Shown here: one piece after another, positions 7,255 to 45,728 of the stretch
How the letters are laid out: each line of letters begins with the position of its first letter
How positions within the stretch are numbered: position 1 is the stretch's first letter
Assembly: GCF_000255295.1 (NCBI RefSeq)
Contig: NC_017030.1
Coordinates: 62,001 to 126,000 of the forward strand
Length of the DNA stretch: 64,000 nt
Direction of reading: 5' to 3'
Origin: Corallococcus coralloides DSM 2259
GTDB taxonomy: Bacteria > Myxococcota > Myxococcia > Myxococcales > Myxococcaceae
The notes under the pieces: model-generated
Told to the model about the DNA's origin: nothing
What the model saw: only the letters and a program-made list of their open reading frames with translations
Database searches by the model: none
Translations under genes and position numbers: made by a program

Positions 7255-8877
7255 TCAGCCCCTGCGCGTGGCCCGGTAGGCTTGGGCGGGATGCTTGGGG
7301 TTGTTGGGGTGGGTCCGTTCGAGGAGACCCTCTTCGACCATGGCCTTGAGATGGCGCTCCGTCAGCTTGTCCGGGCTGTAACTCAGCTTCTTGGCGAGCT
7401 CCGTGGGGTGCCAGGGCCGAAGCGAAGTGAGTGCCATGATGGCTTCGCGAAGGGCTGCCCTTCTGGGTCGGGGGCCTAGCTTTTCGACGATTTCACGTGC
7501 CTTCGCGTCGACTTCTTCTCGGCCGGGAACCCCCCCCAATCCGTCGGGAACCCCCCCCAATCCGCCCGGGGGAACCCCCCCCAATCCGCCCGGGGGAACT
7601 CCCCCCAATCCGCCGGGAACTCCCCCCAATCCGCCGGGAACTCCCCCCAATCCGCCGGTAGCTCCCCCCAGATTGGGCGCGAGCTCCCCCCGATCCGCGG
7701 TCAGGGTCTGTCCCACATTCACCCGCAGGGTGACGACCACGGCGCCCGTGACCTCGGCGAACTCCGGGGCGGAGAGCCCGGCGGCGCGGCACATCTCGGC
7801 GACGCGGTTCGTGCCCCGGCCCCATTTCTCGATGAGTCCGGCGCGGTAGAAGACCTCCGCGATGATGGGATTGCGCTGCACCGACAGATGTGGCCGTGTG
7901 AGCGATTCAGGCGTGATGCCTTTCGGATATCGCCCCGCGCTCCATATCTCCACGCGGTCGTCGAAGATCGCGAGCGACACTGCGCCACCCGCGATGCTGT
8001 AGTCACGGTGGATGAAGGCGTTGACCAGGAGCTCGCGCATCGCATCTGGCGGGATGAGCGGACGGTCGACACGCTGCAGGCGGCCCGGTTCGATGCGGCC
8101 TGCCAATGGGAAATGCCGCTGGCAGAACAGCTCGGCTTCCTCGAGCAGCCGGAAGGCCGGTCCGCGCACGTTGCGTTGGTCGAGGAACTCGGTCTTGTCG
8201 GTGCCTCGAAACCGGGCCATGCGCAGCTCGCACTGGGGATGGTGGGGAAGGAATGTCTTGCCAAAGAGCACGACGGCCGCGCGCAGGAGCCTGCCCTTGT
8301 GGCGTACGCCAAGGCGGTCGAGCAGCTCAGACAGTCCCCGTCCCACCGGTCCCACGAGGCGCCCCGCGGAGCGAGCCGCCTCGACGATGCGCAGCACCTC
8401 CTGGCGGTCGAGCTCCTGGAGCGGAACTTCATCGGCCTCCTGGTTCTCCCAGCGACGGCGGCTGTGCGCACGTTCCAGCAAGAGCAGCTCATAGCGCTCC
8501 TGCGCCATCTTGCGGGTTGTGTTGCCCACCCGCTCATAGGCGCGGCCGTCGAAGGTGTACGGCACGGAATCGCTGATGCCGTCCACGGTGAGCACGAGGA
8601 CGCTCCGCCCTGAAGCGACCTCCACGCTCTGGATGTGGAGGTCGAGCGGAGGTTCGAAGCGCTCCCGCGCCGTCGCGATGTCATGCAGGGTCTGTTCGCT
8701 CACCTGCTGGCCGATGAGCTCTCCGCCAGGCTTCACGCCCAGCAGCACCTGGCCTCCCTGTCCATTCGCGAAGGCGCAGAGCGTGTGCATCGCCTCGCGC
8801 AATTCACCGGTCGAGCGCTTCAACTCGAGTGTGACGGATTCTCCCCTGGCGGCGAGGCGGGCGAGGTCTGGGATCAT
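7255..8877 (-). CDS. AlbA_2 / ATP-binding regulator with repetitive Gly-rich linker
   Basis: 540 residues. The N-terminal AlbA_2 (Schlafen-like divergent AAA_4) domain is seen at about residues 10-130, including LELKRS and FANGQGGQVLLGV. A HATPase_c_4-type domain follows at about 280-390, with ELLVNAFIHRDYS and the ligand-loop region KWGRGTNR. Residues about 405-453 are tandem GGLGGVP or GGLGGVPP units, after which a winged-helix-like C-terminus begins (LREAIMALTSLRPWHPTELA). Proteins of this plan are usually annotated as transcriptional regulators or RecG-like ATP-binding proteins; the biochemical role is unsettled. The ATG has no clear ribosome-binding site. The linker is the unusual part, because its repeats are nearly perfect at DNA level. 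Confidence 0.85.
   Translation of the reverse strand: MIPDLARLAARGESVTLELKRSTGELREAMHTLCAFANGQGGQVLLGVKPGGELIGQQVSEQTLHDIATARERFEPPLDLHIQSVEVASGRSVLVLTVDGISDSVPYTFDGRAYERVGNTTRKMAQERYELLLLERAHSRRRWENQEADEVPLQELDRQEVLRIVEAARSAGRLVGPVGRGLSELLDRLGVRHKGRLLRAAVVLFGKTFLPHHPQCELRMARFRGTDKTEFLDQRNVRGPAFRLLEEAELFCQRHFPLAGRIEPGRLQRVDRPLIPPDAMRELLVNAFIHRDYSIAGGAVSLAIFDDRVEIWSAGRYPKGITPESLTRPHLSVQRNPIIAEVFYRAGLIEKWGRGTNRVAEMCRAAGLSAPEFAEVTGAVVVTLRVNVGQTLTADRGELAPNLGGATGGLGGVPGGLGGVPGGLGGVPPGGLGGVPPGGLGGVPDGLGGVPGREEVDAKAREIVEKLGPRPRRAALREAIMALTSLRPWHPTELAKKLSYSPDKLTERHLKAMVEEGLLERTHPNNPKHPAQAYRATRRG
7522..7672 (-). repeat. 21/24-bp tandem repeats with poly-C tracts inside a coding region
   Basis: Seven or so units of 21 or 24 bp, each containing a run of six to eight C on the plus strand followed by AATCCG. 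They encode seven- or eight-residue GGLGGVP(P) repeats. The unit lengths are multiples of three, so gain or loss of whole units would change linker length in frame. Slippage inside the C8 tracts would instead cause a frameshift. Confidence 0.88.
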
Positions 8878-42412: not shown

Positions 42413-44350
42413 ATGCCTTCGATTCGACCGTTCCGTGCCGCGCTGTTGTCGCTGACCGTGGGCCTGCCGGTGTTCGCGGCCGGGCCCGCAGTGTGGGGCG
42501 AGGGGATGATGGTGAAGGTGCGGCCGGGGACCGCCGTCCGGAGCGCCACCGAGGTGCGGCTCACCGCCGCGCGCAACGAGTTCGTCTCCTTCCAGGTCGC
42601 GCTGCACGGCGGCGACACGGGGCTGAAGGGCGTCCGCGCGAAGCTGCCCGCGTTGGAAGGCCCCACGAAGCTGACGGGGCCGGACGTGACGCTGTACCGA
42701 CAGGCGCTGATCACCACGAAGCAGGCATCAGTCGCGGGAGAGTCCGTGGGCGCGTGGCCGGACGGGCTGGTGCCGGACACGGACGAGATCGCCGGAGAGA
42801 CGCGAAGCGCCTTCCCCTTCGACGTGCCGGCGAAAGAGGCACGGGCCCTGTGGGTGGACGTGCACGTGCCGAAGGATGCGCCGCCCGGCGACTACACGGG
42901 CACGGTGACGGTGGAGGCGGACGGAGGCTTCCAGCGGCAGGTGACGGCGAGGCTGACGGTGGTGGACGCGGCGCTGCCGAGCACGTCCTCGCTGTCGTCC
43001 GCGTTCCTGCTCTGGCCGCCGCACGTGTGCCGAGCGCACACGGGTCGCGAGGACTGCACGCCGGAGGAGCTGCAGCCGTTGCTCACGCGTTACCAGCGGA
43101 TGGCATTGGAGCACCGCTTCACGCTCTCCAGCCTCTTCCCGCGCAAGCCGTGGCCGCCGGAGTGGAGCAGCTTCGACGCGACGTGGGGACCGTACCTGGA
43201 GGGCACGGCGCCCAATCGGCTTCAGGGCGCGCGGATGACGAGCCTGGAGTACGTGGGGCCGCTCGACGCGGCGAACCTGAAGGACTTCACGGCGCACATG
43301 AAGGCAAAGGGCTGGCTGGACCGGGCCTACGTGCAACTGGGGGACGAACCGCCCTACGGAACGCCCTTCGCGCAGGTGCACGCGACGGGAGAGCTGGTGC
43401 GCCAGGCGGCGCCCGGGCTGCGCACGATGCTGACGACGAACTCGCGCGAGCTGAAGGCCAACGGCCTGGAGGACGCGGTGGACACGGCGGTGCCGCTGGT
43501 GAACCACCTGGACGGCACGGACGCGAACTTCCGGGGCGACCAGCGGGGGACGTACACGCGCTTCCTGGAACGCCCGGGAACAGCGTTGTGGATGTATCAG
43601 AGCTGCATGAGCCACGGCTGTGCGTATGGGACGAACGCGCCGGAGAACAAGCCGGGGGCGGGCTGGCCGTCGTACATGCTGGACCGGTCGGCGGCGAAGG
43701 CGCGCGCGATGGAGTGGGTGACGTTCCTGCAGGGAGCGACGGGCGAGCTCTACTACCAGTCGGTGGGCATGCTCTCCACGGCATGGACGGACCAGTACCG
43801 CTTCAACGGCAACGGGGACGGGACGCTCTTCTACCCGGGCACGCCGGAAGCCATTGGCGGGAAGACGGACGTGCCGGTGGCATCGCTGCGGCTCAAGCTC
43901 ATCCGCCAGGGCATGCAGGACTACGAGTGGCTCAAGGCGGTGAGTGACGCGGGAGACCCGGACTTCGCGCGCAAGGTGGCCAGGGACCTGATTCCGGCCG
44001 CATCGCGAGTGACGGACGACGGCGCCGCGTTCGACGCGGCAAGGCTGAAGCTCATCCAGCGTTACGAGGAGCTGACCGCGACCCAAACGCCGGACGCGGG
44101 AACACAGCAGCCGGCGGACGGAGGCACGGAGCCCCTGCCGGACGAAGCCGCGGGAGGTCCCTCGCAGGGGTCACCCGGATCCACTTCCGACGTGACGCCG
44201 GACGCGGTCGATGACGCCCAGGCGGGAGGCTGCACCACGGGTGGAGGCGGAACGGCGGCGGTCGCGGGAGGCCTGTTGTTCGCGGCCTGGGCGCTCGGCG
44301 GCATGCGTCGTCGTCACGCTCGCGTGACCGTGTCCGCCCGGACGAAATAG
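42413..44350 (+). CDS. GH123/DUF4091-like secreted protein with MYXO-CTERM tail
   Basis: 645 residues. A signal peptide (MPSIRPFRAALLSLTVG) precedes a beta-sandwich (about 35-190) and a DUF4091 / glycoside hydrolase 123-type catalytic barrel (about 200-555), with AYVQLGDEPPYG carrying the candidate catalytic Asp-Glu and a final GMQDYEWLKAV. Residues 560-605 are a disordered spacer. The end is a MYXO-CTERM-type sorting signal: a Gly-Cys pair, a hydrophobic helix (AAVAGGLLFAAWALGG) and Arg-Arg-Arg. Such tails are processed by myxosortase to leave proteins lipid-anchored at the surface. No clear ribosome-binding site is seen. GH123 enzymes act on N-acetylgalactosamine glycans; the substrate here is unknown. 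Confidence 0.87.
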   Translation: MPSIRPFRAALLSLTVGLPVFAAGPAVWGEGMMVKVRPGTAVRSATEVRLTAARNEFVSFQVALHGGDTGLKGVRAKLPALEGPTKLTGPDVTLYRQALITTKQASVAGESVGAWPDGLVPDTDEIAGETRSAFPFDVPAKEARALWVDVHVPKDAPPGDYTGTVTVEADGGFQRQVTARLTVVDAALPSTSSLSSAFLLWPPHVCRAHTGREDCTPEELQPLLTRYQRMALEHRFTLSSLFPRKPWPPEWSSFDATWGPYLEGTAPNRLQGARMTSLEYVGPLDAANLKDFTAHMKAKGWLDRAYVQLGDEPPYGTPFAQVHATGELVRQAAPGLRTMLTTNSRELKANGLEDAVDTAVPLVNHLDGTDANFRGDQRGTYTRFLERPGTALWMYQSCMSHGCAYGTNAPENKPGAGWPSYMLDRSAAKARAMEWVTFLQGATGELYYQSVGMLSTAWTDQYRFNGNGDGTLFYPGTPEAIGGKTDVPVASLRLKLIRQGMQDYEWLKAVSDAGDPDFARKVARDLIPAASRVTDDGAAFDAARLKLIQRYEELTATQTPDAGTQQPADGGTEPLPDEAAGGPSQGSPGSTSDVTPDAVDDAQAGGCTTGGGGTAAVAGGLLFAAWALGGMRRRHARVTVSARTK

Positions 44351-44400: not shown

Positions 44401-45085
44401 CGGGCCCACCCTGTCGGAGGCAGACCGGGCAAACTTGTCCGACAGTCGGACCGGTTTTGGAAAACCGCGTCCCGGCCCGGGCCCACCTTGCCGGAGGCAC
44501 ACGGCGCGAACCTGTCCGACAGTCGGACCGGTTTGGGAGTACCGCTGCCCTGGCCTCCGGGGCCCACCTTGCCGGAGGCACACCGCGCGAACTTGTCCGA
44601 CAGTCGGACTGGTTTTGGAAACCGCAGCCTGGACTCCCGCCCCCCTGCCGGAGGCACTCCGCGCGAGTCTGTCCGACAGTCGGACCGGTTTGGGAGTACT
44701 GCTGCCGGGCCCCCTGGGGCCCACCTTGCCGGAGGCACACGGCGCGAACCTGTCCGACAGTCGGACCGGTTTTGGGAAACCGCATCCCGGCCCTCGGTCC
44801 TTCCTATCCGAGGCGCACCCCAGAAACCTGTCGGACAGGTTTCGGAGCACCGCGCCCCGAGCCCCTGGGCCTATCCCTGCCGGAGGCACACCGCGCGAAC
44901 TTGTCCGACAGTCGGACAGGTTTTGAAGCGCTGCGTCCCGGACCCAGGCCCTCCTTGCCGGAGGCACACGGCGCGAACCTGTCCGACAGTCGGACAGGTT
45001 TGGGACGCCCGCGGCTCGGGGGCTCCTGTTCCATCCGGGCAGCGGAAACCTGTCCGACAGTCGGACAGGTTTTGGGGCACCGCGG
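44401..45085. repeat. Array of about nine palindrome-centred intergenic repeats
   Basis: Between two plus-strand genes, a core GTCCGACAGTCGGAC occurs at 44437, 44514, 44595, 44671, 44752, 44903, 44981 and 45052, with a shortened form (CCTGTCGGACAGG) at 44827. Most copies are flanked by CTTGCCGGAGGCACA and CGCGAAC before, and by GGTTTTGG or GGTTTGGG after. The full dyad reads CTGTCCGACAGTCGGACAG in the last copies. Spacing is 71-81 bp. The segments between cores are GC-rich and differ from copy to copy. No gene is credible here, although GC bias leaves several frames open. Confidence 0.92.
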
Positions 45086-45203: not shown

Positions 45204-45728
45204 ATGAGCACGGACGTGGTGAAGCGAGCCGTCATCCGCGAGGCGCGGCCCGAGGACGACAAGGCGATTGGCGAGCTGTTGGTGGACGCCTACGTCACGC
45301 AGTACGCGAAGAAGCTGCCGGAGGTCGTCTACTCCGACGAGCGCAAGGCGTTCCTGCGCGACATCGAATCCAGGCGCAAGGTGTGCACCATCATGGTGGC
45401 GGAAGTGGACGGAGAGGTCGCGGGCACGGTGGCCCTGTACCCGCCCGGCGCGCCCGGCACCGAAGCATGGCTGCCCCGCACGGCGGACCTGCGCGCCCTG
45501 GCCACCTCGGTGCGCTACCACGGCCAGGGTCTGGCCCAGCCGCTGCTGGCGGAGGCGGAAGTCCTCGCGAAGCGCTGGGGCGTGGACGCCATCTCCCTCC
45601 ACGTGCGCCGGGGCGCGTTGGGCGTCGCGCGCATGTACCAGCGCCGGGGCTACCAGCGTACGCCGGAAGGCGACATGGACCGTCTCCCGGACGTGTTCCT
45701 GGAAGCGTACCTGCTGCCCCTGAAGTGA
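45204..45728 (+). CDS. GNAT-family N-acetyltransferase
   Basis: 174 residues. The GNAT fold is visible: an N-terminal strand (VIREARPEDDKAIGELL), a central strand (IMVAEVDGEVAGTVAL), the acetyl-CoA loop of motif A as VRYHGQGLAQPLL, and the final ISLHVRRGALGVARMYQRRGYQ. The substrate is unknown. It starts right after the palindrome array, with GAGGGCGGCGC before the ATG. The next gene is 182 bp away on the same strand. Confidence 0.9.
   Translation: MSTDVVKRAVIREARPEDDKAIGELLVDAYVTQYAKKLPEVVYSDERKAFLRDIESRRKVCTIMVAEVDGEVAGTVALYPPGAPGTEAWLPRTADLRALATSVRYHGQGLAQPLLAEAEVLAKRWGVDAISLHVRRGALGVARMYQRRGYQRTPEGDMDRLPDVFLEAYLLPLK

Follow-up and report, generated by a model that had tools for sequence, protein, structure and literature searches.

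A palindrome array in Corallococcus coralloides and its likely recognition by a multicopy FadR-type GntR family

REPs show a bias towards the 3' ends of genes. Known members of the FadR subfamily are single genes that serve a modest regulon at promoters, and SlmA, Noc and MatP are likewise single conserved genes, with stable sets of sites. For FadR, the accessible part of PMC4494728 lists the Arg-35 contact as "Arg-G, specific" and reports that HTH position 28, which is FadR Arg-35, correlates with the K of TKGT in FadR-type regulators. The nearest precedent for extended sites is NanR, for which an excerpt of PMC8012715 describes three dimers on (GGTATA)3. Among the matches listed from the open-licence literature, we found no description of the Corallococcus repeat treated here or of its GntR multiplication. 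The accessible part of PMC6306037, on 23 Corallococcus genomes, makes no mention of repeats, palindromes, mobile elements, GntR or intergenic DNA, and none of the four myxobacterial genus names appears in the accessible part of PMC3733652.

Here we describe an intergenic array of nine palindromes in Corallococcus coralloides DSM 2259. We consider it likely, on the strength of sequence comparisons, that the array is a cluster, enlarged by local amplification, of a palindrome dispersed through the genome and recognised by a multicopy FadR-type GntR family. The new part is the GntR partner gene of the palindrome.

The array and its counterparts in relatives

The window, by which we mean the whole stretch of 64,000 nucleotides that was analysed, carries the array in the 853 bp that separate a GH123-like gene from a GNAT acetyltransferase gene, the latter present in 16/16 genomes of the genus. 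From the stop of the GH123-like gene to the first 25-bp dyad there are 81 bp. Genes were called with a custom codon-usage script in place of a standard gene finder. The features, in window coordinates, are as follows.

42413–44350, + strand: upstream neighbour, GH123-like protein gene
44401–45085, no strand: tandem array, nine units of ~77 bp
44432–44456, + strand: palindrome copy 1, AACTTGTCCGACAGTCGGACCGGTT, right half altered
44509–44533, + strand: palindrome copy 2, right half altered (GACCGGTT)
44590–44614, + strand: palindrome copy 3, right half altered (GACTGGTT)
44666–44690, + strand: palindrome copy 4, both halves altered (AGTCTGTC / GACCGGTT)
44747–44771, + strand: palindrome copy 5, right half altered (GACCGGTT)
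44824–44842, no strand: shortened copy 6, AAACCTGTCGGACAGGTTT, the dyad minus one 8-bp unit (GTCnGACA)
44898–44922, + strand: palindrome copy 7, AACTTGTCCGACAGTCGGACAGGTT
44976–45000, + strand: palindrome copy 8, perfect 25-bp consensus
45047–45071, + strand: palindrome copy 9, perfect 25-bp consensus, 27 bp including the flanking A/T
45204–45728, + strand: downstream neighbour, GNAT acetyltransferase gene

An earlier note on this DNA had described a 15-base core recurring eight times exactly and once in a shortened form, at regular spacing and beyond chance, and all of this was borne out. The core GTCCGACAGTCGGAC has eight exact matches, at 44437, 44514, 44595, 44671, 44752, 44903, 44981 and 45052, and a single shortened copy, AAACCTGTCGGACAGGTTT, occupies 44824–44842. 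Measured start to start, the spacings are 77, 81, 76, 81, 151 (spanning the short copy), 78 and 71 bp; Tandem Repeats Finder reported a period of 81 with 7.8 copies. With up to three mismatches allowed, a 17-mer scan returned 16 strand-matches at 8 sites; 100 shuffles gave 0.34 on average. The conserved boxes described before the core, GCCGGAGGCACA and CGCGAAC, are exact in copies 2, 3, 5, 7 and 8, but altered in copies 1, 4 and 6 and absent from copy 9. The lengths had to be revised: the dyad of the last copies, given as 19–21 bp, was found to cover 25 bp in copy 8 and 27 bp in copy 9, and the conserved element is not 15 but 25 bp long, with five flanking bases on each side kept in 141 copies outside the window. 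Five of the eight full copies in the array have a right arm changed to GACCGGTT or GACTGGTT, which leaves their long dyad imperfect. Shortened copy 6 has the GT-N3-AC layout of ordinary FadR-type operators. Elsewhere in the window, we observed a strong tandem repeat with a period of 144 and its multiples (1262–2377) and a 21-bp tandem repeat of ~8 copies (7522–7698).

Palindromes at the orthologous spot were counted in 11/16 genus genomes, the upstream gene being missing from the fetched stretch in the other five. Nine were found in C. coralloides, seven in G006, four in G011 (one of them degenerate), two in G003, one each in G010, G008, G013, G001 and G004, and none in G002 and G007. Because relatives carry seven, four, two, one or no copies at this spot, the array is a local amplification of one resident element. 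For 7/9 units of the C. coralloides genome (G000), the best match lies within that genome or is a tie with single-copy relatives, which indicates that amplification of the resident element was for the most part a separate event in each lineage. The last unit, that of copy 9, has its best match in the last unit of G006 (90%), and the orthologous copy in G004 has three 8-bp units. The array would have grown from a single ~77-bp unit, through either unequal exchange or slippage. The suggestion that the array is held by function finds no support in numbers that vary this much from genome to genome, and since five of the eight full copies have an altered right half, we do not think that it is a nine-site platform under selection.

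The dispersed palindrome and its placement

The earlier note had proposed searching the core against the host genome and related genomes. When this was done, 158 cores were found in the C. coralloides genome (one contig of 10,080,619 bp; 0 for the reversed-pattern control) and 4–158 in each congener. Overall, the core was present in 18/59 genomes, namely C. coralloides, 15/15 congeners and 2/43 others (12 copies in G022 and one in G036), while the reversed-pattern controls gave 0 in all 16 genus genomes. A repeat scattered singly at hundreds of sites without spacing had been named there as a refuting finding; the 158 sites are indeed dispersed, but half of the retrieved clusters hold two to eight of them, in part with gaps of 69–82 bp. 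Retrieval yielded 149 sites in 70 clusters, 35 of them single and 35 with 2–8 sites, and 25/79 gaps within clusters measured 69–82 bp; the other 9/158 sites were never retrieved and so stand outside the cluster counts.

Across 141 dispersed copies outside the window, the conserved unit is the 25-bp dyad AACCTGTCCGACAGTCGGACAGGTT, which can be parsed as AACCT, two 8-bp units GTCnGACA, and GGTT. Two such units were present in 143/153 copies at the loci searched in this genome and one, giving a 17-bp layout, in 10/153. A small excess of the box CGGAGGC was seen beside dispersed copies, with 12–13/15 matches in 8/141 against 0/564 controls. The earlier idea of a mobile repeat family holds as far as dispersal goes. 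Two clusters and one GntR cassette have empty counterpart sites in relatives, where the terminal inverted repeats and target-site duplication of a MITE or IS-derived element might have shown, but the flanks were too diverged for the ends to be placed, and no insertion was found whose ends are precise. Phages searched with one palindrome copy at E 0.01 gave no match, and Rfam gave none at the gathering score (seven with E up to 1, the best at E 0.0033 with 29.8 of 90 bits).

According to the custom gene caller, 65/70 retrieved clusters lie outside called genes and 5/70 inside. Leaving out clusters within 1600 bp of a GntR gene, 58 clusters remained, of which 36 lie between tandem genes, 14 between convergent and 4 between divergent genes, with 4 in called genes; 29/36 of the tandem-gene clusters are nearer the stop of the upstream gene. 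This placement bears on the idea of a true regulon, in which the dispersed sites would be operators for GntR control of the neighbouring genes. FadR-type proteins are established regulators, and the GntR genes themselves carry a site at a similar upstream distance. However, with 4/58 clusters divergent and the majority near gene 3' ends, a promoter regulon is unlikely, and the number of cores ranges from 4 to 158 between congeners and varies even at the one orthologous spot.

The same 3'-end bias (14 convergent clusters against 4 divergent, and the tandem clusters nearer the upstream stop) would suit palindromes that act in RNA, as intrinsic terminators or as mRNA-stabilising hairpins at gene ends in the manner of REPs. 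The perfect copies 8 and 9 do fold strongly as RNA (z -5.0 to -5.6), with a short T run after them, but copies 1 and 2, with their altered arms, fold less well (z -1.1 and -2.7), and a terminator scan gave 1 against 1.1 expected, which is chance level. The two arms vary independently over the 141 copies: at outward position 2, 107 pairs were seen where 104.9 were expected. The idea of a hairpin kept by compensatory change was rejected on this count. Missing co-variation makes it less likely that a hairpin is maintained, whether in RNA or in single-stranded DNA, and favours protein-read half-sites or decay. The RNA hairpins considered in the earlier note are weakened accordingly. As the residue-33 rule described below would also be left unexplained, we regard an RNA-level role as improbable.

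Separately, the single asymmetric base of the dyad was observed to follow the direction of replication. In the first half of the genome A is on the + strand at 59/76 sites, and in the second half T is found at 36/46 (Fisher p 1.6e-9 per site and 6e-4 per cluster, assuming an origin near coordinate 1 and a terminus half way). Expressed by presumed leading strand, the central A lies there at 95/122 sites in this genome and 57/72 in the relative G013. The bias is apparently independent of gene strand.

A multicopy GntR gene and its residue 33

A comparison of 400 kb of three genomes brought out a gene cassette between two palindromes at 239–240 kb, which is missing from the same place in G006 and codes for a GntR protein. 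Pfam identified its wHTH (PF00392, 49.1 bits, cut-off 27), while no C-terminal Pfam domain was matched by sequence at E 0.01. In a structural model built from 25 sequences (pLDDT 82, pTM 0.65), the best solved match by VIA-align was the FadR–DNA complex 1hw2 (Z 16.6, rmsd 6.2, 220 aligned), and the PdhR C-terminal domain 5tpm matched with Z 13.2 and rmsd 2.6 over 136 aligned; in Foldseek the top rank went to McbR, followed by FadR. The model supports a FadR-type architecture, subject to the caution that helical proteins always call for, and by predicted fold only, a C-terminal all-helical FCD/FadR_C domain is present. The match to PHROGs was limited to the wHTH part, and plasmids and phages searched with the protein at E 1e-10 gave no match. 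One GntR gene is reported as down-regulated in an Archangium in the accessible part of PMC6997564, and is unlinked to the multicopy family.

The gene has 12 copies in C. coralloides and 1–15 in 15/16 genus genomes, this one included. Eight of the nine other palindrome-rich congeners carry 8–15 copies and the ninth, G007 (70 cores), carries 3; the six palindrome-poor congeners have 0–4. Copy number and core number are correlated over the 16 genomes (Spearman rho 0.90, p 2e-6, uncorrected for kinship). A palindrome lies roughly 90–160 bp upstream of 12/12 copies in C. coralloides and, in a reading of 30 loci, upstream at 29/30, the one miss being cut by a contig end. Binding of the GntR protein to its own upstream copy would set the GntR level; from the sequence by itself, though, autoregulation is not distinguishable from a different role of the upstream palindrome. 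Family-wide, the gene was found in 21/76 genomes, with 38 copies in G076, 16 in G089 and 1–5 in others outside the genus, and the named hits belong to Corallococcus, Hyalangium, Archangium and one unplaced Myxococcaceae. The reading frame extends beyond residue 235 in many copies (L017, L195–L203), and the 3' part of such extended frames holds a second hairpin (e.g. LSDCRTG in L017). We also observed a TGTCAG(A) near the start codon, at about -50, which is conserved in several genera and resembles a half-site or promoter box.

Dispersed dyads together with a dedicated DNA-binding protein might also be taken for a chromosome-organising set of sites, of the SlmA, Noc or MatP kind, read by a repurposed GntR protein, and the central A on the presumed leading strand in both genomes would fit such a set. 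Against this, four congeners (G002, G005, G014 and G015) hold 4–6 cores and 0–1 gene, which speaks against an essential role, and the gene is patchy in the family. We therefore hold a chromosome-organising function to be very improbable.

Recognition by the GntR protein is the reading to which the operator classes point. Two classes were distinguished, AACTGG..CCAGTT (TG) and AACCTG..CAGGTT (CT), and 91/158 cores of C. coralloides fit one or the other exactly. Column 33 was picked by scanning all columns of the alignment and was the only one in which residues did not overlap between classes: R in 10/10 TG copies and A, Q, K or V in 26/26 CT-like copies, the scan leaving out 21 copies without a readable upstream dyad and L171 (class "other", residue R). 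By upstream operator, R was paired with TG in 15/15 and non-R with CT in 50/50. With 3' hairpins added, under a stricter pattern and a position limit that exclude other sequence in or after the gene, the pairings became 22/22 and 55/55, or 77 callable of 97 distinct proteins, with identical proteins counted once and L210, L225, L230, L232, L261 and L262 omitted from the set. The 20 uncallable proteins comprise 17 non-R and 3 R, the three R being cut by contig ends. In 20 copies read later, R was found with TG in 8/8 and other residues with CT, TT or CC in 12/12; among these, L274 and L275, which the pattern failed to match, were judged by eye, and in L266 the dyad is degenerate and further upstream. 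A tree built without column 33 gave four operator changes and four residue changes. Three independent pairs fell on supported branches, all of them concordant, which is too few for significance (sign test p 0.25).

Residue 33 corresponds to FadR 35 by ranges of equal length, 8–72 in the query and 10–74 in 1hw1. TGGT with Arg and CTGT without it is the expected read-out from the FadR contact. The palindromes contain TKGT/ACMA-like boxes at a GT-AC spacing of 3 bp, TGGT in the TG class and CTGT-CCG-ACAG in the CT class, where the first base (C or T) sets CTGT apart from TKGT. On the pairs counted, residue 33 of the GntR protein predicts one step of the putative operator: Arg goes with AACTGG, and other residues with AACCTG or alike. 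The earlier proposal of protein binding gains from this in so far as a GntR partner was found whose specificity residue co-varies with the operator, and from that co-variation we infer that GntR binds the dyad. A GntR dimer would do so via the half-sites AACCTGTC/GACAGGTT (or AACTGGTC/GACCAGTT), and residue 33 (FadR Arg35) would read the middle base pair. Since 143/153 copies contain an extra 8 bp compared with the shorter FadR-type sites, a different or double binding mode would be needed.

Dispersed sites, spread and known systems

Were the dispersed sites read by the GntR proteins, site class would be expected to match the protein classes of each genome. TG sites numbered 48 in G001, 42 in G011, 16 in G003 and 9 in G004, where 8, 6, 3 and 2 R-type copies, respectively, were read. 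The single TG site of C. coralloides lies beside the sole R-type copy of its 12. G007 has one TG site, and the two of its three GntR copies that were read are both Q-type. The other 10 genus genomes have no TG sites; one of them is without the gene, and in the others one or two copies were read, none with R. CT sites were found in 15/16 genus genomes, the exception being G014, with 6 cores and no gene copy at E 1e-30. As far as copies were read, the class of the dispersed palindromes follows the residue-33 rule genome by genome.

The pattern recurs in G089, of another genus, with 135 hairpins of a different sequence; 98 of the 100 listed belong to the TG type, a number of them within gene copies, and the remaining two listed, of CAG type, sit in its two Q-type copies (4/16 GntR copies were read, two R and two Q). 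G029 carries 18 hairpins, some of them in runs spaced at 60 and 80 bp, while 28 were counted in G018. In G076, 38 GntR genes stand against 26 hairpin matches, at least 13 of which lie in the 3' part of the gene copies listed, and an upstream palindrome was absent in 9/9 sampled copies, so site abundance is not always in step with the gene. Some GntR copies of G076 (L187, L189, L190, L192) were observed next to inverted repeats like GAACTCCTAACAAAAATAAGGTTTGAGG, or enclosed by them, with a terminal TA, and L188 and L191 start with CTAAGCgCTCGG and end with GGGAGCTTAG or alike. The GntR gene may ride in IS-like elements in this genome.

REPs of the classical kind, mobilised by a RAYT/Y1 HUH transposase, share several traits with the repeat described here: dispersed palindromes biased towards gene 3' ends, which occur singly or in clusters with a spacing often near 70 bp, and a partner gene that carries the repeat. 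Yet Y1_Tnp (PF01797) was found in 0/16 genus genomes, with the control positive in 5/14 known genomes, and next to the dyad, where a REP would carry a conserved foot of the GTAG/CGTC type, the first bases outside it, outward positions 7–8, are unconserved (141 copies, positions to 8 covered). A RAYT/Y1 transposase was thus rejected as the partner, and movement of this kind is extremely improbable. As in REP/RAYT, there is a gene whose own flanking repeat matches it class by class, and here the GntR gene takes this role.

GntR proteins probably recognise the palindromes, which would have spread in the manner of REPs and whose partner is a transcription factor and not a Y1 transposase. Gene and sites would spread together as a REP-like pair, leaving sites mostly near gene 3' ends, where harm is least. 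As a tentative possibility, we propose that the FadR-type factor and its operators multiply together without a transposase, as a matched pair in each Myxococcaceae lineage, with the factor in a RAYT-like role. Propagation might run via repair or replication-coupled copying directed at the sites, as the central base follows the direction of replication. A repeat family in a much-studied bacterial group gains a candidate binding protein and a one-residue rule, and regulator–operator pairs, matched and mismatched, become available as a natural series. REP-like palindromes that appear to co-evolve with a transcription factor in several genus-level groups of Myxococcaceae also raise the question of how the sites spread.

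Among known systems, the likeness to REP/REPIN with RAYT (TnpA-REP) lies in the short intergenic palindromes, single and in groups ~71 bp apart, and in a partner gene with the repeat in its flanks (both from an excerpt of PMC3116915), as well as in the co-evolution of partner gene and repeat described in part of PMC8266576. The partner described here differs in being a FadR-fold GntR protein by prediction, with up to 38 copies (in G076), and the Y1 gene was not found in any of the 16 genus genomes. With FadR, PdhR and NanR it shares the GntR wHTH, a FadR-like predicted fold, the GT-N3-AC layout and an Arg at the 35-position paired with G. Unlike in that subfamily, gene and site are both multiplied here and the sites avoid promoters; normal sites are also shorter, whereas most palindromes here are 25 bp long with one extra 8-bp unit. 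SlmA–SBS, Noc–NBS and MatP–matS offer a likeness in that a regulator-type DNA-binding protein is combined with many dispersed dyads, but here the numbers of both sites and genes vary more than tenfold within one genus.
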